Of a stretch of 64,000 nt of DNA, positions 10,195 to 35,367 are shown in pieces. Source of the stretch: Rhodanobacteraceae bacterium (lineage in GTDB: Bacteria; Pseudomonadota; Gammaproteobacteria; Xanthomonadales; Rhodanobacteraceae); NCBI GenBank assembly GCA_016790075.1, contig JAEUPP010000018.1:124001-188000 (forward strand). Direction: 5' to 3'. The position numbers were made by a program, and so were the translations under genes. The notes below the pieces were generated by a model that worked only from the letters and a program-made list of their open reading frames with translations, had not been told where the DNA came from and searched no databases. Numbering within the stretch: the first letter of the stretch is position 1; each line of letters opens with the position of its first letter.

Positions 10195-10225
10195 AAAGAT
10201 AGATCACGACCTGGCGACTATCTTT
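10195..10225. promoter_or_regulatory. Inverted repeat upstream of the Hint-protein operon
   Basis: A perfect 8-bp inverted repeat, AAAGATAG (10195-10202) and CTATCTTT (10218-10225) with a 15-nt centre, lies 84 nt before the start of the Hint gene in an AT-richer patch. On the minus strand a TTGAAA overlaps its upstream edge. It could be an operator at the operon promoter. No experimental or family support beyond symmetry and position. Confidence 0.35.
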
Positions 10226-10546
10226 CAAGCTGACGAATTTTTCCAGTCTTAATTTTTTACACAGCCACAACACCCAGAACCCAGGGGGCCATCAGTGGAT
10301 GGCAGCGGGTTCAGTGAGCGAAGTCCATCACCTGTCCATCGCAGGTCAAGCCAGACGGGGATGCGCCAGCGGCATGGCCAGGGCAAGGACGGCGGCAAGG
10401 CGCAGCCGCCGAGTACGCCCGGGCACAGCCAGGCCCGTTCGAGGCAAGCCAATCCGTATCGCCACACGACACGGCGACTCGTTGCCTTGAATCAGGCCCC
10501 GAACGGGTTCGCGGCAGCTATCAGGCGGCGCTGAGCCGCAACCGCT
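10226..10546. other. Spacer between nadE and the Hint operon, nothing recognised
   Basis: About 320 bases. The part next to the Hint gene is AT-rich (a run of T near 10250) and probably carries its promoter; the rest is GC-rich and holds only short frames without ribosome sites or family resemblance. I see no strong terminator behind nadE. Confidence 0.5.
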
Positions 10547-19746: not shown

Positions 19747-21752
19747 GGCACGGCGTCACCGGGCGGCGATGGCTTGCACTGAACAGGATCCACGCCCGCC
19801 GTACGCAGATCGTCAAGAATATTTCCGCGCAGATGAGTGAATTCGCCCGGCCAGTAATTCTGTCTATGCAGAACGTATTCGTGCAGCATGGGCATCCCGA
19901 AACGTGCAGGCCGCACTTGGTCACGAAGCAGCTCAAAACGATCCAGATGACGCAAGGCCTCGCAAGCAAAACCCCGGCTCGCGAGCAAGGCTGATTGCCG
20001 CAGTGCGGTGCCGGGCGCCGGGCGGAAATCGAGCGCACGGTCAAACGCTGCGCGCGCGCGCGCGGCGTTCCCGGACAGCAGCGCAAAGCGGCCATTCAGC
20101 GACATCAGCGTCTGCCTCTGATCGTCGTTGGGGCTCAACCTTGGATTTTCCTCAGCAGCCATGATCAGACGTGCCACCTGGTCAAGCGAAAACCGGCTGC
20201 ATACGGCGCGACCTTCGAGATAATCGTCGATCCAGCGATTCAGCAGCTCACCGGGTCTATCCGCTTCCCGGATCGAACGTGCTGCTACCTCAATATCGGC
20301 GTCGTCCAGCGTACCCAGTACGCAACGTGCTGCGATCAGATTCAGCGCCAGCTGCGGCTCGGCTGGAAAACGCTGCAGAGCCGTCCGAATACGCCGCTCC
20401 GCCTGCTCGGCGCGGCCGAGATGGATCTCAAACTGCGCTGCATTGGCCTGCGCGCGCGGCGAATTCGGCATCTGCTGCGCCCAGACTGCGGCTTGCCGCC
20501 ATCCATCACTCCACAGATTGGCGTGCAGGCGTGTCATCAGGCCCAGCCCTACGAGAACTCCAAGCGCCAGCGCAGTACGCACGAATGCGCGCTCACCGGG
20601 AAGCGCCGCCAGCGCAGCCAGCGGCCAGAACAGAAGCACGGCCGGCAGGTAGTTGCGGTGTTCGAAATACATTTCCAGCGGAACTACGGTCGATTCCAGC
20701 AGATGCCCCGCAAAGAAAAACAAGATAGCCGCGGACAACCGAGGCCAGCGCCGGCGCACAAGAAATGCAGCAATCGGCAAGGTGACAACAGCGAGCAGGG
20801 CAAAAAACGTCGACCAGGGGGTGAACAGGCCAGTCGACAAGGCAATATCGTCGTTGAACAGGCCCGGGGAATACGCTCGCGGCAGGAACAACAGGCGCAG
20901 GTACAGTAGCAGCATGCGCGGCTGAGTCAGCACGCGCTCGCCCAAAGTCCAGGAACGGTAAGCCTCAGCCGTCTGGGCATACTCGGGAATGGCAAACAGG
21001 AGTGCCGCAATCAGGCCCGCCGCGGGCAAATACACCAGCAACCAGAGCAGGATGCGCAAGCGGCGCGCTGCCTCTGGCGAAGGTTGCAGCGTCACCGCAA
21101 GCACCGTTTTTTCCAGCACCAGCGCCAGCAGGGGCAACAACACGCCATTCGCCTTGCAGAGCATCGCAAGCCCTGTCCCCAAGACAAGGCTCGCGGCCAG
21201 CAGCAAGGTCCCGGAACCAATCTGGCCCGAAGCAAACCGGGCGCGGCCGGCCACATAACCGAGCAGTCCGCATAGCACGAACGTCGCGGTCAGCATGGCT
21301 TCGCGTTGAATGATGTAGAGCGTAGTCGAGACGAACAGCGGATGTAGCAGCCAGGCCGCCGCAGCAAGCGCAGCCGCAAGCCGTGCAGACTCACGCCCCT
21401 GATGCAGGACGGCACCCAGGCGTGCGAGCAGCAGATACAGCAGCACGCCGTTGAACAGGTGCAACAGAAGATTGCTGCGCTTGAACGCGAATGGCTCAGC
21501 AGGCCAGGTGTTCGCATCCAGCAGGAATGTGGCCAATGCGACCGGACGCCCCAGCGGATCGGCCGTGCCGCCGGTCAGGTAGCGCACTATCCGCTCGCCT
21601 GACTCCAGGCGTCCGAACTCGCCCAGCAAGGGCAAGTTCGCGAAATCATCGAACAGGAAAGGACCGTATAGGCCGTTCCAGTAGACGAATACTGTCGCGA
21701 ACAGCGCAACCAGCAACAGCAACAGAGCTAACAGTCGACGCTGGTCGGGCAT
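19743..21752 (-). CDS. Multipass GT-C-like membrane protein with C-terminal repeats, paralogue
   Basis: 669 residues from ATG 21752 (MPDQRRLLAL), which has AGGGA upstream and lies just past the pilin terminator; the earlier in-frame ATG at 21785 is inside the terminator stem. Same layout as its neighbour: first membrane helix, Asp-Asp loop (YGPFLFDDFANL), GRPVALATFLLD, NLLLHLFNGVLLYLLL, further membrane segments to ~420, then helical repeats (PRAQANAAQFEIHLGRAEQAERRI). In GT-C enzymes the first-loop acidic pair is catalytic. It is the gene directly behind pilin copy 1, and a broken copy of its 5' end sits behind pilin copy 2, which shows that the pilin and this gene were a linked pair before duplication. 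Likely function: sugar transfer to pilin or surface protein (inference). Confidence 0.75.
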   Translation of the reverse strand: MPDQRRLLALLLLLVALFATVFVYWNGLYGPFLFDDFANLPLLGEFGRLESGERIVRYLTGGTADPLGRPVALATFLLDANTWPAEPFAFKRSNLLLHLFNGVLLYLLLARLGAVLHQGRESARLAAALAAAAWLLHPLFVSTTLYIIQREAMLTATFVLCGLLGYVAGRARFASGQIGSGTLLLAASLVLGTGLAMLCKANGVLLPLLALVLEKTVLAVTLQPSPEAARRLRILLWLLVYLPAAGLIAALLFAIPEYAQTAEAYRSWTLGERVLTQPRMLLLYLRLLFLPRAYSPGLFNDDIALSTGLFTPWSTFFALLAVVTLPIAAFLVRRRWPRLSAAILFFFAGHLLESTVVPLEMYFEHRNYLPAVLLFWPLAALAALPGERAFVRTALALGVLVGLGLMTRLHANLWSDGWRQAAVWAQQMPNSPRAQANAAQFEIHLGRAEQAERRIRTALQRFPAEPQLALNLIAARCVLGTLDDADIEVAARSIREADRPGELLNRWIDDYLEGRAVCSRFSLDQVARLIMAAEENPRLSPNDDQRQTLMSLNGRFALLSGNAARARAAFDRALDFRPAPGTALRQSALLASRGFACEALRHLDRFELLRDQVRPARFGMPMLHEYVLHRQNYWPGEFTHLRGNILDDLRTAGVDPVQCKPSPPGDAVP

Positions 21753-21819: not shown

Positions 21820-22248
21820 TTAACGGCAGGACGTCGGCAGGTACTTGTCCGGGATAGCCGACGTGCAGCGCCAACGGATCGAACCGCCGCCTGCGGTGTT
21901 CGGCGAAAGGGCCAGGGTCTGCGCATTGATGCGGGCATTGACCTGGTTGCCGTAGGTGCAGGTAATCAGACCACCAGCACCGACCGTAACCTGGGTGATG
22001 TAGTTACCGGTGATCGAGGCAGCAGCGGCAACACCAGCCGAAGCGTTCGAGGCCGGCATACGGCCCGTGTTGGTGAAGAACTCAGCAACGGCGGTCTTGG
22101 AACCGTCCGCCAGCACGGTGCACTCGGAGACCTGAGCACGGATCGTGTAGTCCTGGTAGGCCGGCAGCGCGATGGCAGCCAGGATGGCGATGATCGCGAC
22201 GACGATCATCAGTTCGATCAGGGTAAAGCCTTGCTGGATCTTCCTCAT
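21820..22248 (-). CDS. pilA: Type IV major pilin, copy 1
   Basis: 142 residues. Prepilin with a short leader ending MRKIQQG, cleavage before Phe by PilD, then the family helix [20 protein letters not shown] with the conserved Glu5. The globular domain has Cys near residue 41 of the preprotein ([11 protein letters not shown]), another Cys in ITCTYGNQ and a C-terminal pair ([17 protein letters not shown]) that would close the usual disulfide loop. Nearly identical to copy 2; differences are concentrated near residues 93-106. It has its own -24/-12 element 94 nt upstream of the ATG and its own terminator. PilA is the pilus fibre subunit. Confidence 0.96.
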
Positions 22249-22341
22249 GGTGATTCCTTAGTTTTCTGCTGCAGAAAGTTGATAGCCCCAGAGTCTGTCT
22301 ATGCCCGGCGATCCACCTGACTAGACTCTGGCGTCGATATA

Positions 22342-22356
22342 GCATGTTCCATGCCA
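22342..22356 (-). promoter_or_regulatory. Sigma-54 (-24/-12) promoter of pilin copy 1
   Basis: Minus strand reads TGGCATG-N4-ATGCT, with GG and GC in the exact register of the TGGCACG-N4-TTGC consensus. 94 nt from GC to the pilin ATG. PilR, a sigma-54 activator, is encoded in the same window. Confidence 0.8.
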
Positions 22357-22373
22357 TCTGGGCCAGCCGCGCA

Positions 22374-22538
22374 CAGGTAGCGCACTATCCACACGCTTGA
22401 CTCCAATCGTCCGAACTTGCCCAGCAAGGGCAAGTTCGCGAAATCATAGAACAGGAATGGGCCAAACAGGCCGCTCCAGCAAACAGTCACAGCCGACACA
22501 ATCGGCAACAGCATCAATAGTCGACGCAGGTCGGGCCT
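22374..22538 (-). pseudogene. 5' fragment of the GT-C membrane-protein gene
   Basis: About 55 codons matching the start of the gene at 19743-21752 (GLFGPFLFYDFANLPLLG against GLYGPFLFDDFANLPLLG, and GRLESSVWIVRYL against GRLESGERIVRYL). The start codon has become AGG, four codons are missing from the first hydrophobic segment, and one Asp of the Asp-Asp pair is now Tyr. Similarity stops at the RYL codons, which marks the duplication junction. It lies at the expected position behind pilin copy 2. Confidence 0.88.
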
Positions 22539-22550
22539 AGGCGCACCACC

Positions 22551-22585
22551 CCAAAAAACAAAGGCCGCCTTGCGGCGGCCTTTGT
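22551..22585 (-). terminator. Terminator behind pilin copy 2
   Basis: Same 12-bp stem as behind copy 1 (22558-22585) with loop TTGC, followed on the minus strand by TGTTTTTT. Strong intrinsic terminator. Confidence 0.88.
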
Positions 22586-22605: not shown

Positions 22606-23034
22606 TTAACGGCAGGACGTCGGCAGGTACTTGTCCGGGATAGCCGACGTGCAGCGCCAGGTGATCGAACCACCGCCGGCGGTGTTCGGCGAAAGAGCCA
22701 GGGTCTGCGCGTTGATACGGGCGTTGACCTGGTTGCCGTACGTGCAGGTAATCAGACCACCAGCGGTGACCGCAACCTGGGTGATGTAGTTGCCCGTGAT
22801 CGAGGTAGCAGCGGCAACACCAGCGGAAGCGTTCGAGGCCGGCATACGGCCCGTGTTGGTGAAGAACTCGGCTACAGCGGTCTTGGAGCCGTCAGCCAGC
22901 ACGGTGCACTCGGAGACCTGAGCACGGATCGTGTAATCCTGGTAGGCCGGCAGCGCGATAGCGGCGAGGATGGCGATGATCGCGACAACGATCATCAGTT
23001 CGATCAGGGTAAAGCCTTGCTGGATCTTCTTCAT
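22606..23034 (-). CDS. pilA: Type IV major pilin, copy 2
   Basis: 142 residues, leader MKKIQQG then [10 protein letters not shown] with Glu5. It differs from copy 1 at only a handful of positions (Lys for Arg at 2, AATSITGN for [17 protein letters not shown] for [15 protein letters not shown] for SIRWRC). The C-terminal disulfide segment is intact. Separate -24/-12 promoter at 23128-23142 and strong terminator at 22558-22585, so it is probably expressed independently. A second near-identical pilin can supply sequence for gene conversion or allow dosage and glycoform differences; this is inference. Confidence 0.96.
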
Positions 23035-23270: not shown

Positions 23271-23699
23271 TCAACGACAACTCGTCGGCAGGTACTTCGG
23301 ATTGATTGCCGAATTGCAGTTCCAGGTAATACTGCCGCCCGAGCCGGTGACTGGAGACAGCAGCACCGTCTGTCCCATTACCCGTGCATTGACATTGTTC
23401 CCCATCGTGATCGTGATCGCGCCGCCTGCAACCTGCACGCTCGCGACATAACTGCCGGTAATCGAGGCACTTGAGGCGAGCCCTGCGGAGGTATTACTTG
23501 GCGGCAGGCGGCCAGTATTGGAGATGAAATCCCATACCGCGTTCTTGGCACCGGACGCAACAACGAGACCTTCAGAGATCTGCGCGCGAATGGTGTAATC
23601 CTGATAGGCCGGCAGGGCGAGGGCGGCCAGTATTGCGATGATCGCGACCACGATCATCAGCTCGATCAGTGTGAAACCGCGTTGCAGGGGCGTACGCAT
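23271..23699 (-). CDS. Type IV pilin, diverged third copy
   Basis: 142 residues from ATG 23699, which has GGGAGG 6 nt upstream; a longer frame to 23768 has no such support. Prepilin leader MRTPLQRG, then [20 protein letters not shown] with Glu5. Overall the same length and fold plan as the two PilA copies ([38 protein letters not shown]), but it lacks the middle Cys residues and keeps only the C-terminal pair ([17 protein letters not shown]). It has its own, best-matching -24/-12 element. It may be an alternative major pilin or an abundant minor one; sequence alone does not decide. Confidence 0.93.
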   Translation of the reverse strand: MRTPLQRGFTLIELMIVVAIIAILAALALPAYQDYTIRAQISEGLVVASGAKNAVWDFISNTGRLPPSNTSAGLASSASITGSYVASVQVAGGAITITMGNNVNARVMGQTVLLSPVTGSGGSITWNCNSAINPKYLPTSCR

Positions 23700-23784: not shown

Positions 23785-24921
23785 TCAGCGCTTGCGCCCC
23801 TGCCCTACCCAACTGGCACTGGCATCGGGCCGCGCATAGAGCTCGACCTGCTCGAAGCCGGCGTCGGCATAGAAACGCTCCACGTCGCCGCGCGAGAAGT
23901 ACTGGGTAACCGGCGCGATCAGGCGGTCGAACCAGCCCAGTACGTTTTCACGAAACGGCAGCCGTGCATAAATCCGGCCAGGCATGCGTTCGGCCAGCCG
24001 GCGCGTAACGGGAATAGCCGCCAGCACGCGATAGGGCGTGAGCAGCAGAATTTCGGATGCGATCGCGCAAACCCATGAAAGTACCCGCACGATCGGATAC
24101 GGCAGACGTGTCGTCAGCAACCGCAATGCGTCGATGGGCTTGTACCACCATTCACGTCGTCCATAGACCCAAACCACGAAACGCTGCCCGGGCGACAGTG
24201 TGCGCGCAACGCTCTTGAATACATCCCCGGGCCGCGGGATGTGCTGAATGACGGCGACGGAATAGACGAAATCGAAGCAGGGCTTGAACGGCAGTGCCGA
24301 CGCATCGGCCTGGACGGCGTGAAAGTTCGGATAGTAGGCGGACAACGCATATGCCGATTCAACCGCCTGACTGATATCAGCGCCTACGACCTCAGCACCG
24401 TCGTTCAATACCACGCTCGCGGGCCGCCCGGAACCGCAGCCTACATCGAGCACGCGCTTTCCCCTGAAGTCCTCCGGGGCGAGGTAGGGGCGAACGAACG
24501 AATAGAAAAGTCCGCGGTAGTTGTCGAAGTTCTGCAGGAACGTGGTCCACTGATAGCCAAACGCGTTCATCGTCTCTACCCGCTTGCGCTCGGCGCCAGC
24601 CGGATCGGGCAGATCACGAAAACGGTCGCGATAGCGCGCGATGAAATCACCATGGAACTCGCGTAGCGATGCCGCCAGCAGCGCGGACGGCAGCAGCCGC
24701 GGCACGCCTGCAATCACGGGGAATTCACGCGCACAACCACGGCAGGTCAGTTTTCCTTCCCAGATCTCCTCGCCCGGCTGCAACGGTGCCGGAGCGGTCG
24801 GCGGCTGGCTGTCCTTGAACAATGCCAGCCCCGGGTGTTCGTCCTTGCGCAGAAATGCATCAAGGTCGAGCTCGCCCGCACATTCGGGGCACTGTAGGAA
24901 ATCAAGCAGCCGTTGCTTCAT
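23785..24921 (-). CDS. SAM-dependent methyltransferase with N-terminal zinc-ribbon-like domain
   Basis: 378 residues. The N-terminus is Trm112-like: LQCPECAGELDL and KLTCRGCAREFPVIAGVPRLL (two Cys-x2-Cys pairs, likely a zinc site). A class I methyltransferase domain follows with motif I VLDVGCGSGRP near residue 160, motif II VVGADIS and a post-I stretch FDFVYSVAVIQHIPRP. This domain pair is frequent in surface-glycan gene clusters. The substrate is unknown. The gene lies 82 nt after the seven-gene cassette on the same strand and is the last gene before the pilins, so it probably belongs to the cassette. Confidence 0.82.
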   Translation of the reverse strand: MKQRLLDFLQCPECAGELDLDAFLRKDEHPGLALFKDSQPPTAPAPLQPGEEIWEGKLTCRGCAREFPVIAGVPRLLPSALLAASLREFHGDFIARYRDRFRDLPDPAGAERKRVETMNAFGYQWTTFLQNFDNYRGLFYSFVRPYLAPEDFRGKRVLDVGCGSGRPASVVLNDGAEVVGADISQAVESAYALSAYYPNFHAVQADASALPFKPCFDFVYSVAVIQHIPRPGDVFKSVARTLSPGQRFVVWVYGRREWWYKPIDALRLLTTRLPYPIVRVLSWVCAIASEILLLTPYRVLAAIPVTRRLAERMPGRIYARLPFRENVLGWFDRLIAPVTQYFSRGDVERFYADAGFEQVELYARPDASASWVGQGRKR

Positions 24922-25003
24922 GCACGTCCCCCCGGGCCTAACGCAAACCGTCCCACGACGGCGATGACTTTGCGGCGATGATGTCCGATCGGCGAATCCA
25001 GGT

Positions 25004-25756
25004 CTAGGTCACACGCTTGCGCAAAATCCACAAATATCCAGGACAGATCCACGGCAGCCGACGAGCGACAAATGCCGATACTCGCTGGGTCAGCGAACCG
25101 GGTTTGACCAGATAGTCGAAGGCATAGGCTTCGGGATCATCAAGCACCGCGGCGGTGTAGTCGTCAATATCGAAGCGGGCCACGAGCTTGCGCAGCGCGG
25201 GATAGGAACGCATGCGCTCGTAGTAGCGGCTGCCCTTGCCGCAGACGCGTAGATAGGCATCCGCCAGAGCCGGAGGCAGCCATGACAGCAACGGCAGGCG
25301 GAAATGCGGCTCCATCAGGATAAACCGGTTCGTTGCGGCAAAGTAGCAGATGCCGCCTGGCTTGAGCACGCGCTCCAGTTCGGCCATGAGCCGCGACTGG
25401 TCCGGCACGTGTTCGTAGACTTGCGAACAGACCAGTACGTCGAAACTCGCCTCGGGAAACGGGATGTTCAAGCCGTCGCCAACTTCAAAACGCAGGTTGC
25501 TGCGCTGAAAATGATTCCGCGCGTGCTCAATGGCGGCGTGATCGATATCGATGCCGACGACCTCGCCAAACTCATCGGCAAACACGGCATCCATGATGCC
25601 GGACGATGATCCCACATTGAGCAACCGGCATTGCGCAACACGCTCGCCCAGCACTCGCCGCAATACACGCAGCGCGGTCGCCGCCTTGCGGCCGCGACCG
25701 TCGACGTCATACATGCTCGCGTGCAGCGACGAAAAGTCGTTCTGGTACTCCATCAC
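25004..25756 (-). CDS. SAM-dependent class I methyltransferase
   Basis: About 250 residues. Motif I appears as LLNVGSSSGIMD (Gly-rich loop with SSSG in place of GCGxG), acidic motif II as VVGIDIDHAAI, then FDVLVCSQVYEHVPD and ELERVLKPGGICYFA, typical of Methyltransf_11-type enzymes in polysaccharide clusters. Two overlapping starts are possible: GTG 25756 and ATG 25753; AGGAG lies 8 nt before the GTG, and both overlap the stop of the flippase-like gene, so translation is coupled. Substrate not predictable; a sugar hydroxyl or carboxyl group of the glycan is the natural guess. Confidence 0.82.
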   Translation of the reverse strand: MMEYQNDFSSLHASMYDVDGRGRKAATALRVLRRVLGERVAQCRLLNVGSSSGIMDAVFADEFGEVVGIDIDHAAIEHARNHFQRSNLRFEVGDGLNIPFPEASFDVLVCSQVYEHVPDQSRLMAELERVLKPGGICYFAATNRFILMEPHFRLPLLSWLPPALADAYLRVCGKGSRYYERMRSYPALRKLVARFDIDDYTAAVLDDPEAYAFDYLVKPGSLTQRVSAFVARRLPWICPGYLWILRKRVT

Positions 25757-26679
25757 GGCGCCCGCTCCTGTGCTCGTAACTGACTGGCCATGCGTGAACG
25801 GCGCGTGACGATCGCCCAGACAGCATAGCTGACGATGTCACCGGCAATTGCACTGAGACGAAACAGCAGAAAACTCGCAACAACCGCCGGGGTGCCGACA
25901 CGGCAGGGTTCAAGCAGCACATAGGACGTTTCGGCGACACCCCAGCCCTGCGGCGCGAAGACTGCCAGGTATCCCTGCACCGCAGCAACCAGGTAGGTCG
26001 CCATGATCGTCGACGTAGCGCAGACTTCAAGTAGCGGCTGCGCAATGAGGGCGAAAGCGCCAGCGGTTAGCGGCCAGATCACCAGAAACAGGACAGCAGC
26101 AAGGCCCAGACGCTTCCAGGCGCGGCGCCAGGCCAGTGCGATGGCGATCAGGGCCGCACCACCACCGACGGCCGCCTGCAGCGCAGCGAACACGAACACC
26201 GGACTTGCCGGTGAGAACACCACCAATCCAAGGCCGCAAGCGGTCAGGCCGCTGACCGCTACCAGAGCCATCTCCAGCAGGAACAGACGGCGCAGCGCAG
26301 CGCTGTCGACACCCGCATCAAACTTCATGTCGGCATAACGCGCGACGGAATGCCAGATACCTCCGGGCAGATAGCGTGCAGGAATGCGGCGCATATACAC
26401 GGCAAGACTGACCGCCAGCTCGATGCGAATGCCGGAAAACCGTTGCAGCTGAAAAAAAGCGATGCCGATCAGCGGATGCAGCAACGCCAGCACCAACGCC
26501 CCAGCAGTCATGTGCAGCGCGACGCGCAGGCTAAGCAGTGGACGCAAACTATCCGCATGTTGGAACAGATAAATGCCAATCGCGATCAGCGCGAAAGCAA
26601 GGAACAATCGCTGAGTCAGCGCTAGCAGACGCGTCCCCCGTGCAGCGAGCCAAGCCTTTAGCCGCTCCAGCACAGTCAC
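25753..26679 (-). CDS. Flippase-like integral membrane protein (LPG-synthase TM-region family)
   Basis: 308 residues from GTG 26679, chosen because this GTG overlaps the TGA of the preceding methyltransferase (GTGA); the longer frame to 26769 would overlap that gene by 94 nt. About eight hydrophobic segments cover the protein, with the signature RRIPARYLPGGIWHSVARY and APQGWGVAETSYVLL that recall the lysylphosphatidylglycerol-synthase membrane domain (also called UPF0104 / flippase-like). Members without the cytoplasmic aminoacyl-transferase domain, as here, are common in glycan clusters and may move lipid-linked sugars. Function inferred from family context only. Confidence 0.7.
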   Translation of the reverse strand: MTVLERLKAWLAARGTRLLALTQRLFLAFALIAIGIYLFQHADSLRPLLSLRVALHMTAGALVLALLHPLIGIAFFQLQRFSGIRIELAVSLAVYMRRIPARYLPGGIWHSVARYADMKFDAGVDSAALRRLFLLEMALVAVSGLTACGLGLVVFSPASPVFVFAALQAAVGGGAALIAIALAWRRAWKRLGLAAVLFLVIWPLTAGAFALIAQPLLEVCATSTIMATYLVAAVQGYLAVFAPQGWGVAETSYVLLEPCRVGTPAVVASFLLFRLSAIAGDIVSYAVWAIVTRRSRMASQLRAQERAP

Positions 26680-27425
26680 CCACTGCGCCTTGCGCTGGCG
26701 ATATAGCCATCGCCGATGTCCAGACCAAAGGTCATTCGCTGAAGCAGGAAAAAAGGCCAGAGCATCCACGGTTTCAGTACACGACTGACCGCAACCACGG
26801 CGCCAGACTGTTGCGTGCCGCTTTCAATACTGCGTGCAACGGCATCGCCCTCGGCTGGTGCCTTGATGCGGCGCTCCAGCGCATTGCCGACGACGCGCCC
26901 CAGGTTTCCAAGGGGGAAGCCGTAACACGCGATGCGTACCTCTTCGTAGCCGGCGGCAGTGATCAGCGCCCGCAACTGGTCCCGTTCGTAGCGGCGTACA
27001 TGACCGACACGATGATCCGTCGCGCTGAACTTGCGCTGGTGCGCCGGCACCGACACGAGCAAGCGCCCGCCGGGACGCAGCTTCGCAGTCCACGCGCCCA
27101 ACGCGGCTGCATCGTCATCGATATGCTCGATCACTTCAAAGGCCACCAGGTAGTCGACCCCGGCATCCGGCAACGAATCGATGGTGTCGACGATACGGAC
27201 CGCCGGGTTTTCCGCAAACCGCCGCCGCAGCGCCGCGCGCGTCGGTTCCCCGAGGTCGTAGAGCGAAGAGCGGAAACCACGCCGCAGGAATTCACCTGCC
27301 ATCTCGCCGGTGCCTGCGCCGACCTCCAGCAATTCGCCCGGCGTCCAGCCACGTGTCAACGCAGCGATACCATCAGCCCGCAGCCAGAATTTGGGGGAAC
27401 GCCCCCAGTGCTCGGTCGTGCTCAT
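26676..27425 (-). CDS. SAM-dependent class I methyltransferase
   Basis: 249 residues from ATG 27425, which overlaps the asnB stop codon as ATGA. Motif I LLEVGAGTGEMAGEF, then YDLGEPTRAAL, VDYLVAFEVIEHIDDD and KLRPGGRLLVSVPAH are clear class I methyltransferase motifs. A conserved-looking HRVGHVRRYERDQL segment occurs in methyltransferases of glycan clusters paired with glycosyltransferases. It ends with GTGA overlap to the flippase-like gene. Specific substrate unknown. Confidence 0.82.
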   Translation of the reverse strand: MSTTEHWGRSPKFWLRADGIAALTRGWTPGELLEVGAGTGEMAGEFLRRGFRSSLYDLGEPTRAALRRRFAENPAVRIVDTIDSLPDAGVDYLVAFEVIEHIDDDAAALGAWTAKLRPGGRLLVSVPAHQRKFSATDHRVGHVRRYERDQLRALITAAGYEEVRIACYGFPLGNLGRVVGNALERRIKAPAEGDAVARSIESGTQQSGAVVAVSRVLKPWMLWPFFLLQRMTFGLDIGDGYIASARRSG

Positions 27426-29308
27426 GCCACTTCCCTGCTGGGCGCCGCAAGCGACGGCGCGGCGCTCGTATTGATCCAGATTGCATAAGTCCACAAAAGC
27501 CACAGCCGCTGACCATGGTCAACGCCGCCCTGCCTGTGCGCCTCGACAAGCTGCTGCACAGCCGATGTATCGACCCAATCTTGCCCACTGCAGCGCAGGC
27601 CAGACAGCAGATCATCAGCCAGCTCACCACGAAACCAGGCACCGAGTGGCACGGCAAACCCTTGCTTGCGGCGGCGCCAGAGCCAGGGTGGTGCCAACGA
27701 ATCGACCGCCTTGCGCAGCAAGGCTTTTCCGCGCAGGCCGCGAAAGTGCTGAGCGGAGCCGCCTGACAGCGCAAGCTCGATCAGGCGATAGTCAAGAAAC
27801 GGGCAGCGCTGCTCCAGCGAGTGCGCCATCGATGCCCGGTCGGTCTTGACGAGTATGTCCTGCGGCAAATAGACCAGCGCATCGGCGCACATCATCGCAA
27901 GTACATCATCGCCGCGAACCCATTCGGGCAACGCGGGCGAGGCATGGCCACGACCGGCGAGACCCGGTGCCAGCCGCGCCAGTTCGGCCTCGCTGAAGAA
28001 CCGCGGCGCGACATAACGAGCCTCGCTCTCGCCGCGCGCGAGCGCTGCGTTGCGCACGAACAGCTGGGCTTTCTTGAGAAGGCTGCGGCTGTGGTGCTGC
28101 AGCGGCTCCGGTAGAGCACGCAGCAGTGATTCCGCGCCGCGCTGTACCGGCCTGGGCAGCCGCGAATACCAGCGCAACAGCACTCGCCCCAGATAACGCT
28201 GATAGCCGCCAAACAGCTCATCGGCCCCATCGCCTGACAGGGCGACCTTCACCCGCCGCGCAGCAAGCGCCGACACGGCCGCCGTCGGCAGCAGCGAGGC
28301 ATCACCAAACGGCATGCCGACATGCTGTACCAGCAACCGCAGCATGTCGGCACGATCCGTACCCGCGTACACGGCCGTTTCATGGTCCGTGCCGAGAAAT
28401 CGCGCCATCCGCGCCGCATAGTCGCTCTCGTCGTAACTCGCATCGGCGAACCCGATGGAGAACGTGCGCAGCTTGTGCTCCGTATGGCGTGCAGCGAGTG
28501 CGCTCACAAGCGACGAGTCAACACCACCGGAAAGAAATGCACCGACTTCGACATCGGCGACCAGCCGGTACCGTACCGCACTTTCAAGCAGCTCCAGCAC
28601 GCGAGCGCCGTCGCCGGGCGCAACGGATGGCTGCTGGGGCAGCGACCAATACGGCTGCTGCCGCGCAAGCATACCCGGCTGCCAGCGCATCAGATGTCCG
28701 GGCAATACCTCGCTGCTGCCCTGATCGATGGTATGGCCGGGCAAGGTGCAGCCGTAACGCAGCGTGTCCGCAAGGCTGTCCAGATCGACAGCGGGCGCCA
28801 CACCGGTCAATGTGCGCAAAGCCGGCAGCTCTGACGCACAGGCAAAACGATCGCGGTCTGACCGCAGGTACAGCGGCTTCTTGCCGAGGCGGTCGCGTGC
28901 AAGCAGCAAGGTGCGCTCTACCCTGTCCCAGAGCGCGAACGCCCACATGCCGTTGAGCCGAGCAAGAAACCTCTCGCCATCGAGCGCCATCCCCGCCAGC
29001 AGCACCTCGCTGTCTGAGTGCGTGCGGAATGCCCAGCGCGAAGCAAGCTCAGCGCGCAGCTCGGCATAGTTATAAATTTCACCATTGTAAACAATGGTCC
29101 AGCGCCCACTGGCGTCGCTCATCGGCTGCTGACCGTCACTGATACCGATGATGGCCAGACGCGAGTGGCCCATATGCCAGTGCTCATCACCAGCGGTGTC
29201 GATGCCGTCCGGACCACGGTGGGCCATGGCCTGAATCGCCGCACGGCAGCGCGCCGCAACACCTTCGCGCCCACGCGCTGGGTCGTAGAGAAAGACTATG
29301 CCGCACAC
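27422..29308 (-). CDS. asnB: Asparagine synthase (glutamine-hydrolysing) family amidotransferase
   Basis: 628 residues from GTG 29308, which puts the catalytic Cys at position 2 (V/M-CGIVFLYDP) as class II glutamine amidotransferases require, with GGAGG upstream; a longer in-frame start would bury that Cys. N-terminal domain: HRGPDG, NGEIYNYAELRAEL. C-terminal ATP-pyrophosphatase domain: FLSGGVDSSLV P-loop, SGDGADELFGGY, and EQRCPFLDYRLIELAL. In cells AsnB makes asparagine from aspartate and glutamine, but copies embedded in glycan operons are thought to amidate sugars or other acids. It is located between a GT4 and a methyltransferase in a coupled operon, so a dedicated role in the glycan is plausible. 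Confidence 0.9.
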   Translation of the reverse strand: MCGIVFLYDPARGREGVAARCRAAIQAMAHRGPDGIDTAGDEHWHMGHSRLAIIGISDGQQPMSDASGRWTIVYNGEIYNYAELRAELASRWAFRTHSDSEVLLAGMALDGERFLARLNGMWAFALWDRVERTLLLARDRLGKKPLYLRSDRDRFACASELPALRTLTGVAPAVDLDSLADTLRYGCTLPGHTIDQGSSEVLPGHLMRWQPGMLARQQPYWSLPQQPSVAPGDGARVLELLESAVRYRLVADVEVGAFLSGGVDSSLVSALAARHTEHKLRTFSIGFADASYDESDYAARMARFLGTDHETAVYAGTDRADMLRLLVQHVGMPFGDASLLPTAAVSALAARRVKVALSGDGADELFGGYQRYLGRVLLRWYSRLPRPVQRGAESLLRALPEPLQHHSRSLLKKAQLFVRNAALARGESEARYVAPRFFSEAELARLAPGLAGRGHASPALPEWVRGDDVLAMMCADALVYLPQDILVKTDRASMAHSLEQRCPFLDYRLIELALSGGSAQHFRGLRGKALLRKAVDSLAPPWLWRRRKQGFAVPLGAWFRGELADDLLSGLRCSGQDWVDTSAVQQLVEAHRQGGVDHGQRLWLLWTYAIWINTSAAPSLAAPSREVA

Positions 29309-29339
29309 GAGGAGATCCTCCGCAATCGGCGTAGCCCCA

Positions 29340-30521
29340 TCATGCCACTCCCGAGCGCGACGCTGCAGCAGCGAAAATGTCGGCGTAACGGCGCGCCGCA
29401 GCCTCCCAGCTCCAGCCGCTGATCTCGACATGCCGGCGCGCGGCCAGCGCCCGCCGCTGGCGTTCTTCGGGGCGCGCCATCGCGTCGTTCAAGACGACGG
29501 TCAGCGCGTCGACATCGCCGGCGTCGAACAGCCAGGCATGCTCGCCTTCCCGGACCGTATCGACCACACCGTCGATGCGCGACGCAACAACGGGAACACC
29601 GCCCGCCATCGCTTCCAGCAACACGTTAGGGCGACCTTCGCTATAGCTTGGCAGCACGAACAGCGTGCTTGCCGCCAGATGATCCGCAACCTGTTCCGGC
29701 GCGACCTGACCGCAGAATTCCAGCCTGTCATCGACCGCCAGCGACCGGCCCAGTGACTGCAGCGATGCACGTTCAGGCCCGTCACCGACGAAACGCAGCA
29801 CGACAGCGGAGTCCTGCATGCGGGCAAAAGCGCGCAGCAGCACATCAGCTCCCTTGCGCGGAATCAGGCTGCCGACGAATACGATGCGAGCGGGAAAACC
29901 CGACGCTGCGACGGGCGGCCGAAACTCACCACCGACACCGTTGAGTACGACACGCACTTTCGGCGCACTGGCGGGAACTTCCGCCTCGAGATTGCGCGCC
30001 ATGCTCTCGGCTACGCAGACAACGGTATGCGCGTGTGCTACCGAGTAATGCAACAGGTGGCGATGGATACCGGAGCGGCGCGCAACCGTGACGTCGTCGC
30101 CGCGCAATGTCAGCACCACAGGGCGCCGATGCAACGGGCGCAGTAGAGCAGCAAGCGCCCCGGTGATGGCCCAGTTCGCGTGAATAACATCGACACGCCG
30201 TGCAGCACGCACCAGTCGCCATGAAAACGCGAGCAGGAACCACGGAAGCAGCAACAGCAGTGCCGGCCGCGCACGAATTGCCGGCAGCACGCCTCCGGGT
30301 TCCTGCGCCAGCCGCTGCCAGCGCCGCGGCGCATAGCGAAACGGCAGCAAGATCACACGCGCTCCACCGTCCACCGGCTCGGCCGACGCGTCTGCCGGAC
30401 ACAGCACCTGCATCTGCGCATGCGCCGTCAGCGCCTCGACCAGTCGGCGCACAAACACGCCGGAACTCGATGTTGCGCGTAACGGATACGACGTTGTCAG
30501 CACCAGCACACGCAGCCCCAC
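29340..30521 (-). CDS. GT4-family glycosyltransferase
   Basis: 393 residues, GTG start at 30521 with AAGG upstream, 1 nt after the previous gene. GT-B fold: N-terminal half with VLVLTTSYPLRATSSSGVFVRRLVEAL and VDVIHANWAITG; C-terminal half with IVFVGSLIPRKGADVLLRA, FVGDGPERASL and the donor-binding motif SYSEGRPNVLLEAMAGGVPVVA (E-x7-E). These are the hallmarks of group 1 (GT4) retaining transferases that build polysaccharide repeat units on the cytoplasmic face. Sugar not predictable. Confidence 0.9.
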   Translation of the reverse strand: MGLRVLVLTTSYPLRATSSSGVFVRRLVEALTAHAQMQVLCPADASAEPVDGGARVILLPFRYAPRRWQRLAQEPGGVLPAIRARPALLLLLPWFLLAFSWRLVRAARRVDVIHANWAITGALAALLRPLHRRPVVLTLRGDDVTVARRSGIHRHLLHYSVAHAHTVVCVAESMARNLEAEVPASAPKVRVVLNGVGGEFRPPVAASGFPARIVFVGSLIPRKGADVLLRAFARMQDSAVVLRFVGDGPERASLQSLGRSLAVDDRLEFCGQVAPEQVADHLAASTLFVLPSYSEGRPNVLLEAMAGGVPVVASRIDGVVDTVREGEHAWLFDAGDVDALTVVLNDAMARPEERQRRALAARRHVEISGWSWEAAARRYADIFAAAASRSGVA

Positions 30522-30522
30522 G

Positions 30523-31284
30523 TCAACCTTCCTGCGGCGGCACCGGCCGCTTCAGCACTGCCCAGTACGATACGGGCAAAAAGTCGACTGCGGGCGCAAT
30601 CCGCGACAACAGCCAGCAGCCGATATTGATCGCCGTAACCAAAGGTGCCAGCAGCAAGCCAAGCAGCAAAAACGGGCGGAACCTTTCCCCTGCCGTGAAA
30701 AGCGCCTGAGCCAGCGCGAGATTGCATAACATGCCGGCGCTTTCTATTGCGTGCCCCCGCGCAACGATGGTCTCGACTTCGAGCGCCGCGCCACGGGCCA
30801 GCGCTTCCAGCCCGTGCCCGGTCATTCGCCAGAAATCGTAGGGCCGGTCATGCAACGGATAAGCAAACGGAACATGCAACAACACCTTGCCACCCGGTCG
30901 CAGCACGCGGGCAGCCTCGATCAGGCTCGCCTGCGGTCGCGGCAGGTGTTCCAGTACATCAAGCACTACCAGACAATCAAAACTCGCATCCTGGAATGGC
31001 AACTGCTGCGCATCACCAAATACATCCGGGCGCGTGCGATAGAGCGCGGTAGCTGTGCCTGGATAATCCAGCCCGATGTAACCCACGGATGCATCCAGCC
31101 GTTCGTGCAACGCAGAATCCGCACAACCGATATCGACCACGCTGCCGCGCGCGCGCGCGGCAACTTCACGCGCCGCCATTTCCTTGAATCGGAAACTGAC
31201 CCATTGCGGATGCAACGGCGAGTGGCGCACCCGCTGCGCCGCCCGGCGAATGTACCTTGCCCAGCCCCCGGTCGGCTTGCTCAT
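30523..31284 (-). CDS. SAM-dependent methyltransferase with C-terminal hydrophobic tail
   Basis: 253 residues, ATG overlapping the GT2 stop as ATGA. Class I motifs: SVVDIGCADSAL, YIGLDYPG, FDCLVVLDVLEHLPRP, VLRPGGKVLLHVPFAYPLHDRPYDFWR. The last part contains a long hydrophobic segment (FRPFLLLGLLLAPLVTAI) that should anchor it in the membrane, as expected for an enzyme acting on a lipid-linked sugar. Substrate unknown. Confidence 0.82.
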   Translation of the reverse strand: MSKPTGGWARYIRRAAQRVRHSPLHPQWVSFRFKEMAAREVAARARGSVVDIGCADSALHERLDASVGYIGLDYPGTATALYRTRPDVFGDAQQLPFQDASFDCLVVLDVLEHLPRPQASLIEAARVLRPGGKVLLHVPFAYPLHDRPYDFWRMTGHGLEALARGAALEVETIVARGHAIESAGMLCNLALAQALFTAGERFRPFLLLGLLLAPLVTAINIGCWLLSRIAPAVDFLPVSYWAVLKRPVPPQEG

Positions 31285-32126
31285 CGCCGATACGTCAGAC
31301 TCGTGATCTGCTCCGAAACAAGGCCGATCAGAAACACGATCGCGGCCGCGCTCAGCAGCAATGCGCTCATGTTGGTGAAACGCTGCTGGTAGTAGTAGGT
31401 CAAGCCGTAGTTCAGGGCACCCAGGCCGAAAAACACCAGACTGGCTGGCAGGAACAGCTTGAACGGCGAATACAGCGTGGCGATCTTGAAGATGATGAGC
31501 AGGAAGCGGATACCGTCGCGCAGCGGCCGGATGTGGCTCTTGCCGGTGCGCTTGCCGACTGCGATCGACTCATAGGCAATCGCATAGGCGCTGCGGAAGA
31601 ACGCCATGGTGATCGTCGTCGGGTAGGAAAATCCGTTCGGCAACAGGTGCAGGAACTCCAGAAACTTCTCGGCCCGCACTGCACGGAACCCGGAGGTCAG
31701 ATCGGCCACTGTATGGCCGGTCATCCAGCTAGCCAGCCGGTTGTACAGCGTATTTGCCATACCCCGGCCGACACCAGCCTGCCCGGACCAATCCCGCGCG
31801 CCGACGACCATGTCATAGCCCTGCTCCAGCCGGGCCAGCAACCGCTCGATATGCGCCGGATCATGCTGCCCGTCGGCATCCATGAAGACCAGCACATCAC
31901 CATTGGCCGCACGCGCGCCGCGCTTGATCGCCGCCCCGTTGCCCATGGAATACGGGCTGGACAGGCAGCGAACCGTGTTGGCTGCGCAGATTTCCCGCGT
32001 GTCGTCGGTCGAGCCATCGTCAACGATGATGATCTCATCGGCGGGCCTGGCCGCACGCAGACGGGGCAATAGGTCACGCAGGGCCGCCGCCTCGTTCTTG
32101 GCCGGCAGGATGATACTGATGGGCAT
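31281..32126 (-). CDS. GT2 glycosyltransferase with two membrane helices (polyprenyl-phosphate sugar synthase type)
   Basis: 281 residues from ATG 32126, the point where the GT-A domain starts (MPISIILPAKNEAAAL); longer frames to 32264 run into the leader. Nucleotide-sugar and metal motifs: EIIIVDDGSTDDT, DGDVLVFMDADGQHDP, DLTSGFRAVR. The C-terminus holds two long hydrophobic segments (FLPASLVFFGLGALNYGL and SAAAIVFLIGLVSEQI). This pattern matches dolichol/undecaprenyl-phosphate mannose or glucose synthases, which provide the donors used by GT-C transferases. As first gene of the cassette it gives a rationale for the two GT-C proteins beside the pilins. Divergent from pilB; 218 nt between them should hold both promoters, though I see no convincing elements. 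Confidence 0.85.
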   Translation of the reverse strand: MPISIILPAKNEAAALRDLLPRLRAARPADEIIIVDDGSTDDTREICAANTVRCLSSPYSMGNGAAIKRGARAANGDVLVFMDADGQHDPAHIERLLARLEQGYDMVVGARDWSGQAGVGRGMANTLYNRLASWMTGHTVADLTSGFRAVRAEKFLEFLHLLPNGFSYPTTITMAFFRSAYAIAYESIAVGKRTGKSHIRPLRDGIRFLLIIFKIATLYSPFKLFLPASLVFFGLGALNYGLTYYYQQRFTNMSALLLSAAAIVFLIGLVSEQITSLTYRR

Positions 32127-32344: not shown

Positions 32345-34072
32345 ATGGCCACGCAGATCAATCCAGCGAACCTCGCAGGCTTGAGCGGCATCGCACGCCG
32401 CCTTGTCGCAGAGGGCTCTCTCGCGGAAGCGGATGCGCGCCGCGCACTCGAAGCCTCATCGAAGCAGAAGATTCCGCTTGCGACTTACCTTATCGACAAC
32501 GGCATGGCCGAGAGCCGCACCGTGGCCATGGCCGCATCGGCCGAATTCGGCGTACCGCTCTACGACGTCAGCGCGATCGACTTCGCGCAGTTGCCTCTGA
32601 AGCTGGTCAGCGAAGAACTCATTACCAAGCACCGAGCCCTGCCGCTGTTCAAGCGCGGCAATCGCCTGTTCGTCGGCCTCTCCGATCCGACCAACCTGCG
32701 CGCACTCGACGAGATAAAGTTCCAGTCCAACCATAGCGTCGAACCTATCCTTATTGACGAACGCGCACTTGCGCGCGTGATCGAGCAGGCGCTGAGCCAA
32801 AGCAGCACTTCCGTCGACGTGGAAGGCGACGAGGGGCTGGAGAGCCTGGACCTGAACGCCGGCGACGACGATGCAGACAGCGGCGGCGGCGGTGTCGATG
32901 CAAGCGGTGCCGACGACACGCCGATAGTGAAATTTGTGAATAAAGTACTGGTCGACGCCATCAAGCGCGGCGCCTCGGATATTCACTTCGAACCGTTTGA
33001 AACTGAATACCGCGTGCGCCTGCGCATGGACGGCGTGCTGCGCAAGGTTGCGGCTCCGCCATCAAAAATCGCACCGCGCATATCCTCGCGCCTCAAGGTC
33101 ATGTCGGGGCTGGACATTGCGGAGCGCCGCGTACCCCAGGACGGCCGTATCAAGCTCAATCTGTCCAAGGGCAAATCCATCGACTTTCGTGTAAGCACCT
33201 GCCCCACGCTGTTTGGCGAGAAGGTGGTCCTGCGTATTCTCGATGGTTCTGCAGCCAAGCTCGGCATCGAGAAGCTCGGTTACGAGGAAGATCAGAAAAA
33301 GCTATTCGTCGAGGCGATCGAAAAGCCCTACGGCATGGTGCTCGTGACCGGGCCGACCGGCTCCGGCAAGACCGTATCACTGTATACGGCGCTGAATATT
33401 CTCAATACCGAAGGGCGCAATATTTCGACCGTGGAAGACCCGGTCGAAATCCGCGTGCCTGGCATCAATCAGGTGCAGCAGAACCAGAAACGCGGCATGA
33501 CGTTTGCCGCGGCGCTGCGCTCCTTCCTGCGCCAGGACCCGGACGTGATCATGGTCGGGGAAATCCGCGACCTGGAAACGGCGGAGATTGCGGTCAAGGC
33601 GGCGCAGACCGGCCATATGGTGCTGTCGACGCTGCATACCAACGATGCGCCGCAGACCATCGCGCGCTTGATGAACATGGGCATTGCGCCCTACAACATT
33701 ACGTCCTCAGTCACGCTGGTGATCGCGCAGCGCCTCGCCCGCCGTCTGCACGACTGCAAGCGGCCGCTGATCCTGCCGCCGGCCGCCCTGCTCGCCGAGG
33801 GCTTTACGGAAAGTGAAATTGCCGGAATGCAGATGTTCGATGCCGTCGGCTGCTCCGGTTGCAACGAAGGCTACAAAGGCCGCGTCGGCATCTACCAGGT
33901 GATGCCGCTCAGCGACGACATCTCGAAAATCATTCTCGCCGGCGGCAACGCAATGCAGATTGCCGACGTCGCACGCGCCGCAGGTATCCGCGATCTGCGC
34001 GCCTCGGCGATGCTCAAGGTCAAGCAGGGCGTCACCAGCCTCGCCGAAATTAACCGTGTTACCAAGGACTAA
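32345..34072 (+). CDS. pilB: Type IV pilus extension ATPase PilB
   Basis: 575 residues. Hexameric GspE-type motor that powers pilus assembly at the inner membrane with PilC. N-terminal MshEN-like domain (residues ~15-150), an acidic/Gly linker (DDDADSGGGGVDASGADD), then the ATPase: SDIHFEPFETEYRVRLRMDG, Walker A GPTGSGKT near residue 340, Asp box TVEDPVE, Walker B DPDVIMVGEIRD and the His box MVLSTLHTNDAP. The C-terminal zinc site usually has two Cys pairs; here the second pair is present (GCSGCNEGY) but the first region reads RRLHDCKRP with one Cys. pilC starts 2 nt downstream. Confidence 0.98.
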   Translation: MATQINPANLAGLSGIARRLVAEGSLAEADARRALEASSKQKIPLATYLIDNGMAESRTVAMAASAEFGVPLYDVSAIDFAQLPLKLVSEELITKHRALPLFKRGNRLFVGLSDPTNLRALDEIKFQSNHSVEPILIDERALARVIEQALSQSSTSVDVEGDEGLESLDLNAGDDDADSGGGGVDASGADDTPIVKFVNKVLVDAIKRGASDIHFEPFETEYRVRLRMDGVLRKVAAPPSKIAPRISSRLKVMSGLDIAERRVPQDGRIKLNLSKGKSIDFRVSTCPTLFGEKVVLRILDGSAAKLGIEKLGYEEDQKKLFVEAIEKPYGMVLVTGPTGSGKTVSLYTALNILNTEGRNISTVEDPVEIRVPGINQVQQNQKRGMTFAAALRSFLRQDPDVIMVGEIRDLETAEIAVKAAQTGHMVLSTLHTNDAPQTIARLMNMGIAPYNITSSVTLVIAQRLARRLHDCKRPLILPPAALLAEGFTESEIAGMQMFDAVGCSGCNEGYKGRVGIYQVMPLSDDISKIILAGGNAMQIADVARAAGIRDLRASAMLKVKQGVTSLAEINRVTKD

Positions 34073-34074
34073 CC

Positions 34075-35358
34075 ATGGCCACTGCAACGGTTTCCCGTAA
34101 ACCCCAGACTGCCGTCGTCGCGGCGCGCGGGCGCGCGCGCGCCGAAGTCAGTGCGCTGCAGACCTTTGTCTGGTCCGGCAAGGACAAACGCGGCCAGGCC
34201 ATCAAGGGCGAGTACGCCGCGAAGAACATGAGCTTGGTCAAGGCCGAGCTGCGTCGGCAGGGCATCAACCCAACCTCGGTCAAGGCCAAGCCGAAACCGT
34301 TGTTCGGTTCAGCCGGCAAGACGATCAAGGCACGTGACATTGCCGTCTTCAGCCGCCAGATTTCCGTGATGATGCAAGCAGGCGTGCCGCTGGTGCAGGG
34401 CCTGGACATCATCGCCGGCGGCCAGCAGAACGTGCGCATGAAGAACATGCTCACGGCGATCAAGAACGACATCGAAGGCGGTTCGACGCTGCATGAGGCA
34501 CTGGCAAAGTTCCCCGTCCAGTTTGACGAGCTGTTCGTCAATCTGGTGAAGGCCGGTGAAGCCGCCGGTGTGCTCGATACGGTGCTCGATACCGTCGCAA
34601 CCTACAAGGAAAACATCGAATCGCTGAAAGGCAAGATCAAGAAAGCGATGTTCTATCCCGCGATCGTGCTCGCGGTCGCCACCATCGTCTCGGCAATTCT
34701 GCTGATCTTCGTCGTGCCGCAGTTCGAGCAGGTGTTCAAGGGGTTTGGCGCGGATCTGCCGGCGTTTACTCAGATGATCGTCAGCGCGTCGCGCTTCATG
34801 ACCAAATACTGGTATGTCGTGCTGCTCAGCCTCGGCGGGACGATCGCCGGACTGATTTTCCTCTACAAGCGTTCACCAGCCTTCGCCCACTTCTGCGCCC
34901 GCGCCGTACTCAAGCTGCCGGTGATAGGGCAGATCCTGCATCAGTCGGCCATCGCGCGCTTCGCCCGCACGCTAGGCGTGACCTTCCGCGCTGGCGTACC
35001 GCTGGTCGAGGCGCTGGATTCCGTCGCCGGCGCGACCGGCAGCCCTATTTACAATGCCGCGGTCAAGCGTATCCGCGAAGACGTAGCGGTCGGCCATCAG
35101 CTGCAGCTTGCCATGCGCCAGGTCCAGCTGTTCCCGAACATGGTCGTGCAAATGGTCGCGATCGGCGAGGAATCGGGCGCGCTGGACAAGATGCTGTTCA
35201 AGATCGCCGAGTTCTACGAAGAGGAAGTCAACAACGCCGTCGATGCACTGGCCAGCCTGCTCGAACCCTTCATCATGGTCATCATTGGCACCCTGGTCGG
35301 CGGCATGGTCATCGGTATGTATCTGCCTATCTTCAAACTCGCCGCAGTCGTAGGCTGA
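34075..35358 (+). CDS. pilC: Type IV pilus inner-membrane platform protein PilC
   Basis: 427 residues. Two homologous cytoplasmic T2SSF helical domains (FSRQISVMMQAGVPLVQGLDII and FARTLGVTFRAGVPLVEALDSV), separated and followed by membrane helices (AIVLAVATIVSAILLIFVV and IMVIIGTLVGGMVIGMY). Couples PilB motion to pilin extraction. A Lys/Arg-rich N-terminal ~60 residues precede the first domain (TFVWSGKDKRGQAIKGEY). Start ATG 34075 directly follows the pilB stop. Confidence 0.98.
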   Translation: MATATVSRKPQTAVVAARGRARAEVSALQTFVWSGKDKRGQAIKGEYAAKNMSLVKAELRRQGINPTSVKAKPKPLFGSAGKTIKARDIAVFSRQISVMMQAGVPLVQGLDIIAGGQQNVRMKNMLTAIKNDIEGGSTLHEALAKFPVQFDELFVNLVKAGEAAGVLDTVLDTVATYKENIESLKGKIKKAMFYPAIVLAVATIVSAILLIFVVPQFEQVFKGFGADLPAFTQMIVSASRFMTKYWYVVLLSLGGTIAGLIFLYKRSPAFAHFCARAVLKLPVIGQILHQSAIARFARTLGVTFRAGVPLVEALDSVAGATGSPIYNAAVKRIREDVAVGHQLQLAMRQVQLFPNMVVQMVAIGEESGALDKMLFKIAEFYEEEVNNAVDALASLLEPFIMVIIGTLVGGMVIGMYLPIFKLAAVVG

Positions 35359-35367
35359 CCGATACCG

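Follow-up and report, generated by a model that had tools for sequence, protein, structure and literature searches.

Most of what is known of pilin glycosylation comes from Pseudomonas and Neisseria. Here we describe an eight-gene glycan cassette set within the type IV pilus locus of Rhodanobacteraceae bacterium, which we take to be a soil bacterium, and we argue that it is probably one allele of a variable pilin-glycosylation island. The window analyzed is a stretch of 64,000 nucleotides (assembly GCA_016790075.1, contig JAEUPP010000018.1; C56 124001-188000 in our contig numbering) from a Tahibacter-like genome of 5.6 Mb in 83 contigs, and coordinates given without a locus name are positions within it. 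The genes of chief concern encode the glycosyltransferase GT2, a flippase-like protein (FLP), and two neighboring membrane proteins with tetratricopeptide repeats (TPRs) that are putative GT-C glycosyltransferases (GTCa and GTCb, together GTC).

The archaeal Agl pathway assembles oligosaccharides on a lipid monophosphate and employs methylated sugars. Its enzyme AglJ (TIGR04182) is the best NCBIfam match of our GT2, at 109.4 bits far under the cut-off of 325, and acceptor and transferase differ between the two systems. The eukaryotic TMTC O-mannosyltransferases have a GT-C domain followed by TPRs, a layout that GTC, as a putative GT-C protein, would share.

In Pseudomonas, TfpW and TfpO modify pilins, and a terminator is described between the pilin and the accessory gene (PMC11841053, available text). 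In the arabinosylation of P. aeruginosa group IV pilin by TfpW, as set out in that text, a GT-C-type transferase lies beside the pilin with a terminator between them, much as a putative GT-C protein lies here beyond a terminator-like site; our locus departs from that arrangement in that its putative GT-C protein has TPRs, GT2 stands in place of the PRPP route as the donor enzyme, and a flippase candidate and a variable assembly island belong to it. Among the ten proteins of the cassette and GTC pair, to which the search was confined (rest of the genome unsearched), there is no PRPP-type polyprenyl-phosphate ribose or arabinose gene product. The GtrA/GtrB/Gtr system and ORF12-15 of Citrobacter are three-component donor, flippase and GT-C systems that modify O antigens (PMC11127046, available text), and they combine a polyprenyl-phosphate-sugar synthase with a flippase and a GT-C protein, the set for which our locus has candidates. 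As far as that text goes, their targets are O antigens, they transfer single sugars, and their flippase candidates are of SMR or MATE type, whereas the locus here is pilin-linked and has additional GT4, AsnB and methyltransferase genes; a scan of the same ten proteins gave no GtrA-type small flippase. Elaborate systems in Xanthomonas are noted in the same text, as is a system of Pseudomonas syringae predicted to arabinosylate pilin. The pilin O-oligosaccharyltransferases TfpO and PglL are alike in transferring a glycan to pilin, and their mark, Wzy_C (PF04932), is absent from the window's contig and from the ten proteins scanned. Xanthomonas pil loci also have divergent pilA alleles (PMC4235730, PMC5217246, available text), ascribed in the first of these to horizontal exchange; the variation described in those texts is in pilin and pil genes, and they describe no glycan island.

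Results

The cassette consists of eight intact minus-strand genes running head to tail from 32126 to 23785 with zero internal stops, between a divergent pilB and three pilin genes. Its order is GT2, a methyltransferase (MT1), GT4, an AsnB-type amidotransferase, MT2, FLP, MT3 and a zinc-ribbon methyltransferase (ZnMT), and the seven junctions, measured once gene starts had been refined by hand, are -4, +1, +31, -4, -4, -4 and +82 bp, which agrees with the first-pass annotation of a chain with overlapping or near-touching ends. A Pfam scan identified GT2, GT4, Asn_synthase with GATase, four class I methyltransferases and a Trm112-like zinc ribbon. The order in the window as a whole is sucD-sucC, pilS, pilR, GTCb, GTCa, three pilins, cassette, and the divergent pilB-pilC-pilD.

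GT2 (31281-32126, minus strand; PF00535) adjoins pilB and belongs to the conserved core. When a profile of 11 GT2 orthologues was searched against the PDB, the top seven matches were ArnC, dolichol-phosphate mannose synthase and sll0501 (the last of which we take to be GtrB), so that the closest solved relatives lie in the polyprenyl-phosphate glycosyltransferase class to which the protein had been assigned on first inspection; the motif DAD stands at residue 83.

Linkage to the pilus was followed in three samples. The near-relative set holds 61 genomes, namely the genome of the window and 60 relatives, and 41 of them have a GT2 orthologue (at least 304 bits, with the next best match at 166 bits); all 40 orthologues from the relatives were taken with their surroundings. 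These share genomes with the named GT2 loci, which are the best 80 of at least 573 confirmed stretches. The order-wide survey covers 200 genomes, in each of which up to the best 12 GT2, 8 GTC and 9 FLP candidates were scored, so that its absences are soft, and 85 of them have a GT2 orthologue. In what follows a pilus gene, GTC or flippase "in the stretch" is one within the DNA fetched around a locus.

A divergent pilB adjoins GT2 in 34 of the 40 relatives, and five of the six other loci keep a pilin, pilC or GTC (L060, L068, L072, L073 and L076). Likewise, pilB stands at GT2 in 75 of the best 80 named loci; among those without an intact pilB, L081 has GTC, L141 has pilC and GTC, and L122 has a partial pilB at a contig end. 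Since pilB is found beside GT2 at such frequencies, the linkage to type IV pilus genes proposed at first sight is beyond chance. A cassette found mostly away from pil genes would have spoken against that proposal, and this is the case neither for GT2 nor for the 12 FLP relatives found by profile, though a few GT2 loci do lie elsewhere (L050, L102 and L118, considered in the Discussion). Among the matches listed, the closest named GT2 loci are those of Tahibacter caeni and a metagenome-assembled genome of Lysobacterales (84%), followed by Solimonas soli and Tahibacter soli (79%). As a separate observation, GT2 adjoins pilC, and the fetched stretch lacks pilB, in L068/L141 (the same Pseudofulvimonas genome), L072 and L073.

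The partner of GT2 is the membrane pair GTCa (19743-21752) and GTCb (17785-19746), two multi-TM, TPR-bearing minus-strand proteins of one family. In the near-relative set, a GTC homologue occurs in exactly those 41 of the 61 genomes that have the GT2 orthologue, both being absent from the other 20. Across the 200 genomes, 83 have both, 2 have GT2 alone (G152 and G204, partial matches), 9 have GTC alone and 106 have neither (Fisher p 5e-43, kinship ignored; overlap counts compiled by hand from the match tables). G013 has both though unlinked (GT2, GTC and pilB at 1.67, 2.39 and 1.27 Mb, respectively). In 13 relatives that lack GT2, the pil loci retrieved hold no GTC, and in many of them pilA lies directly by pilB. 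Together with the minimal clusters described below, these counts support the pairing of the membrane proteins with GT2 that the first-pass annotation had proposed.

In the membrane part of GTC, all 24 homologues aligned keep a DD, mostly as FDD, and the motif EHRNY, and weak TPR matches are seen in 20 of the 24 (Pfam, E up to 1). A PDB search with the whole protein returned TPR and designed proteins. Comparison of the family with PMT_2 by hhalign gave a weak match (67% probability, and 58% with a cleaned set), with six controls at 0.2% or less. It is likely that GTC belongs to GT-C, and GTCa and GTCb are treated here as putative pilin glycosyltransferases.

FLP (25753-26679, minus strand) is a flippase-like multi-TM protein. 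The window copy itself gave no Pfam or NCBIfam match at the cut-offs used and no solved-structure match; a member of the same family from a minimal pilin locus (L198:10581-11474) matches LPG_synthase_TM (PF03706) at 38.9 bits, over the cut-off of 33.4, which points to a distant relationship. With a profile of seven relatives, FLP was found in 12 of the 200 genomes, in 10 of which it starts 0.9-7.3 kb from the GT2 orthologue, and all ten of these stretches contain a pilin, pilB or GTC; the remaining two genomes (G180 and G101) have neither GT2 orthologue nor GTC nearby. The flippase-like protein of the first-pass annotation is thus tied to GT2.

The four genes also occur by themselves. pilA, GTC, GT2 and FLP are contiguous in L197, L198, L199 and L223, and in L198 the four share a strand and span 7118-11474; an additional GTC stands among the four in L200, and in L201 and L202 FLP is 1.6-1.8 kb from GT2 with methyltransferase-like matches close by. 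Searched with the window references and two Wzx models only, L197-L202 gave no GT4, AsnB or Wzx match. These minimal loci, which all come from one family of genomes and of which L197-L202 are a non-random sample picked for GT2-GTC adjacency, suggest that pilin, GTC, GT2 and FLP may be the core of a pilin modification, as acceptor, transferase, donor synthase and flippase, respectively.

In a census of FLP and Wzx-type flippases made on six-frame open reading frames and counted per stretch, the window and 80 named loci (n = 81) comprise 12 with FLP, 48 with Wzx, 1 with both (7.1 expected) and 22 with neither, a near-exclusion with p 1.4e-4, kinship ignored; a widened FLP profile run over 146 stretches, whose genomes are partly repeated, gave 35 with FLP, 70 with Wzx and 3 with both. 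Counted per island, the window, named and chosen loci (n = 38) have FLP in 16, Wzx in 12, both in 1 and neither in 9, and loci L039-L078 (n = 30) have FLP in 14, Wzx in 13, both in 1 and neither in 2. The two seldom share a stretch and are most simply read as doing the same job.

Between the core genes, the interval from GT2 to GTC or pilA is filled differently among the 80 loci of the island map, from which 12 loci without a GT2 call were omitted; the far boundary is visible in 39 of the 80, and at least two genomes are counted twice (L044/L082 and L068/L141). Scanning 20 frequent island clusters revealed GT4s, GT2s, a DegT aminotransferase, a GDP-mannose dehydratase, two further NAD epimerases, Glf, a PglD-like acyltransferase, Wzx, RMNT_CmcI and other methyltransferases, one of the 20 representatives giving no match at E 1e-5. 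One GT4 cluster has 32 members across the mapped islands. The run GT2-GT4-AsnB is common to the window, a genus mate (L041) and the Dyella loci L092, L100 and L111, and the MT2-FLP pair of the window is closest to that of L041, where the order is GT2-GT4-AsnB-MT2-FLP. The earlier view of the cassette as one complete, hypothetical route is not supported in that form, as the set is not shared as a unit: GT2, GTC and a flippase (FLP or Wzx) recur, and GT4, AsnB and the methyltransferases, which vary, are one of many alternative fillings.

The variable part in the window, all on the minus strand, comprises MT1 (30523-31284; PF08241), a class I SAM methyltransferase overlapping GT2 by 4 bp, with relatives that adjoin GT2 in some other islands; the glycosyltransferase GT4 (29340-30521; PF00534/PF13692); the AsnB-type glutamine-dependent amidotransferase (27422-29308; PF00733 and PF13537), in which a GTG start puts Cys at the N-terminus and SGGVDS is kept; MT2 (26676-27425; PF13489), a class I methyltransferase with the motif EVGAGTG; MT3 (25004-25756; PF08241), of the same class; and ZnMT (23785-24921; PF08241 and PF03966), whose Trm112-like ribbon has the form CxxC/CxxC (Cys 11/14/60/63). 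Foreign origin was considered on base composition and rejected, the cassette's GC of 0.61-0.66 per kb resembling that of its flanks.

On the pilus side, the extension ATPase gene pilB (32345-34072, plus strand; T2SSE match above cut-off) marks the divergent boundary of the island, with pilB, pilC and pilD spanning 32345-36234 on the plus strand. The type IV pilins pilA3 (23271-23699; PF00114 and PF07963), pilA2 (22606-23034; PF00114) and pilA1 (21820-22248; PF00114), all on the minus strand, are the likely acceptors. The pilA1-GTCa unit is duplicated, with 88% identity over 784 bp, which accounts for a degenerate 5' remnant of GTCa downstream of pilA2 (22332-22568, minus strand; tblastn 77.4 bits, E 5e-22, against 19.6 bits for the best of 50 shuffles). 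A GG-N10-GC sigma-54-like site precedes each pilin, by about 30 bp for pilA3 (23745-23730) and by 92 bp for pilA2 and pilA1, in accord with the adjacent pilR, so the pilins need not rely on the cassette transcript; across the whole window this pattern is unenriched (58 found, 51 expected). Terminator-like hairpins follow pilA2 (22576-22564) and pilA1, before GTCa (21790-21778). The terminator search gave 24 sites where 16.0 were expected and the sigma-70 promoter search 1 where 3.7 were expected, so that single promoter or terminator sites prove little.

Two further observations concern other genes. A 633-aa protein at 8270-10171 (minus strand) has a weak C-terminal Hint match (PF13403, E 0.007, under cut-off). 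In a genome of the same genus without GT2 or GTC (G001, L159:5763-8376), a sulfatase-fold membrane protein of 616 aa (PF00884) lies with a methyltransferase by two pilins of the pil locus; relatives of the former at E of 1e-40 or less occur in 4 of the 200 genomes (G001, G088, G070 and G115), inside the pilin locus L200 in G088 and near pilD in G070 (L214), and it may represent a different, phosphoform-type pilin modification.

Discussion

We regard the cassette as one allele of a variable pilin-glycosylation island, with a probability of about 0.72, in which a lipid-linked glycan would be assembled, flipped and transferred to pilin. GT2 would load a sugar onto polyprenyl phosphate and GT4 would add a second; AsnB would amidate the glycan, perhaps on a uronic acid residue, and as many as four methyltransferases would methylate it. 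FLP would then move the lipid-linked glycan across the inner membrane, and GTCa, GTCb or both would transfer it to Ser/Thr of PilA. The lipid carrier, the order of steps, the identity of the sugars, pilin as the acceptor and the acts of AsnB and the methyltransferases are what we infer from the gene content. The island is supported as one for pilin glycans because its fillings are glycan-assembly genes and because the pilA-GTCa unit is duplicated.

Several results weigh against this reading. Glycosylation of the pilin is itself a prediction from the genes, and GT4, AsnB and the methyltransferases are tied to pilin by position only. GTC occurs without a GT2 orthologue in nine genomes (G071, G081, G084, G118, G148, G185, G195, G197 and G200), in three of which it is still by pilus genes (L203 in G071, L204 in G197 and L205 in G148). 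The membrane part of GTC has no Pfam match over cut-off and no match in a PDB profile search, the GT-C assignment draws on a weak PMT_2 profile match, and in the hhalign alignment the FDD of GTC is not aligned with the acidic motif of PMT_2. The 12 genomes with FLP are a lower bound, more being found by the widened profile when run on pil-locus stretches, and the 22 of 81 loci with neither FLP nor Wzx include Dyella loci with the same GT4-AsnB pair. The Ser+Thr fraction is alike in 45 pilins from 26 loci with GT2 and 18 pilins from 11 loci without (p 0.17).

Two other explanations are less probable. It is improbable, in our estimate, that the cassette serves lipopolysaccharide or exopolysaccharide, the spot by the pil genes merely accepting foreign glycan genes and at most GT2 and GTC concerning the pilus. 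The fillings are indeed O-antigen-like (Wzx, GDP-mannose dehydratase, Glf, DegT), AsnB resembles the exopolysaccharide amidotransferase TIGR03108 (413 bits, under the cut-off of 817), and in L050 (G013), L102 and L118 GT2 stands beside GT4 with pil genes and GTC absent from the stretch, a pair possibly displaced from the pil locus. Polysaccharide genes exist elsewhere in this genome, however, as its four PF04932 matches lie on C44, C9, C12 and C46, with none on the window's C56, and a PF02397 initiator is also on C12; FLP, which belongs to this chain of overlapping genes, is associated with GT2 and GTC, and the minimal loci L197-L202 gave no match to GT4, AsnB or Wzx in the search described above. 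We consider it quite improbable that pilin receives a monosaccharide only, the GT2 product passing via FLP and GTC, with GT4, AsnB and the methyltransferases unrelated and AsnB perhaps making plain asparagine. Loci of pilin, GTC, GT2 and FLP without GT4 or AsnB matches do exist, and the three-component systems transfer single sugars in the available text of PMC11127046. AsnB scores 408.3 bits against the asparagine synthase model TIGR01536, above its cut-off of 267. Sugar amidotransferases are close relatives of asparagine synthase AsnB, and a score that passes the TIGR01536 cut-off and misses that of TIGR03108 is compatible with more than one substrate. Against a monosaccharide, GT4, AsnB, MT2 and FLP are joined by junctions of -4 to +31 bp and kept together in L041, the 32-member GT4 cluster recurs in the mapped islands, and Wzx in many loci suggests an oligosaccharide.

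The lipid carrier admits a variant with pilin still the acceptor, in which a phosphoglycosyl transferase encoded elsewhere in the genome would supply the undecaprenyl-diphosphate primer that GT4 extends, and GT2 would produce a single-sugar donor in a separate reaction; we think this unlikely. Candidate initiators are present in the 41 genomes, PF02397 genes elsewhere in 24 and PF00953 genes in 40. Nevertheless, as far as contigs reach, no PF02397 or PF00953 match (E of 1e-10 or less) lies within 15 kb of GT2 in any of the 41, a check compiled by hand from match tables, while GT2 is constant, and the PF02397 match is missing from 17 of the 41. In several genomes the nearest PF00953 gene on the same contig is about 20 kb from GT2, and that of this genome (51671-52231) is expected from its position to be mraY of the division cluster. 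A monophosphate-linked glycan is favored, since no lipid-charging enzyme other than GT2 was seen there.

Returning to the pilin-glycosylation island, we found no description of it in a search of a library of open-access papers, subscription papers and preprints being outside its scope. Its unusual features are a TPR-bearing transferase, a linked flippase candidate and an exchangeable island, and it appears to be an undescribed pilin-glycosylation core across several genera; among the listed matches its apparent carriers are Tahibacter, Dyella, Rhodanobacter, Luteibacter, Luteimonas, Arenimonas, Solimonas and others. Its minimal loci hold a candidate flippase for polyprenyl-phosphate glycans, and GTC is a candidate GT-C family whose membrane domain has no Pfam model. 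A more specific proposal, which we put forward tentatively, is an archaeal-like logic in which the conserved GT2 would prime the building of a whole oligosaccharide on polyprenyl monophosphate. Wzx or a flippase of the LPG_synthase_TM type would flip this oligosaccharide, and a new GT-C family with TPRs would transfer it en bloc to pilin. If that were so, the island between GT-C and GT2-pilB would act much as a serotype locus does, for pili, with GT2 as fixed entry, GT-C as fixed exit and an exchanged middle, and the exchange would plausibly be under phage pressure. Glycan variation may aid phage evasion, and the loci provide a natural allele set for the idea that phages drive the diversity of pilus glycans: the different gene sets that relatives carry at the same spot may change how their pili look to phages.

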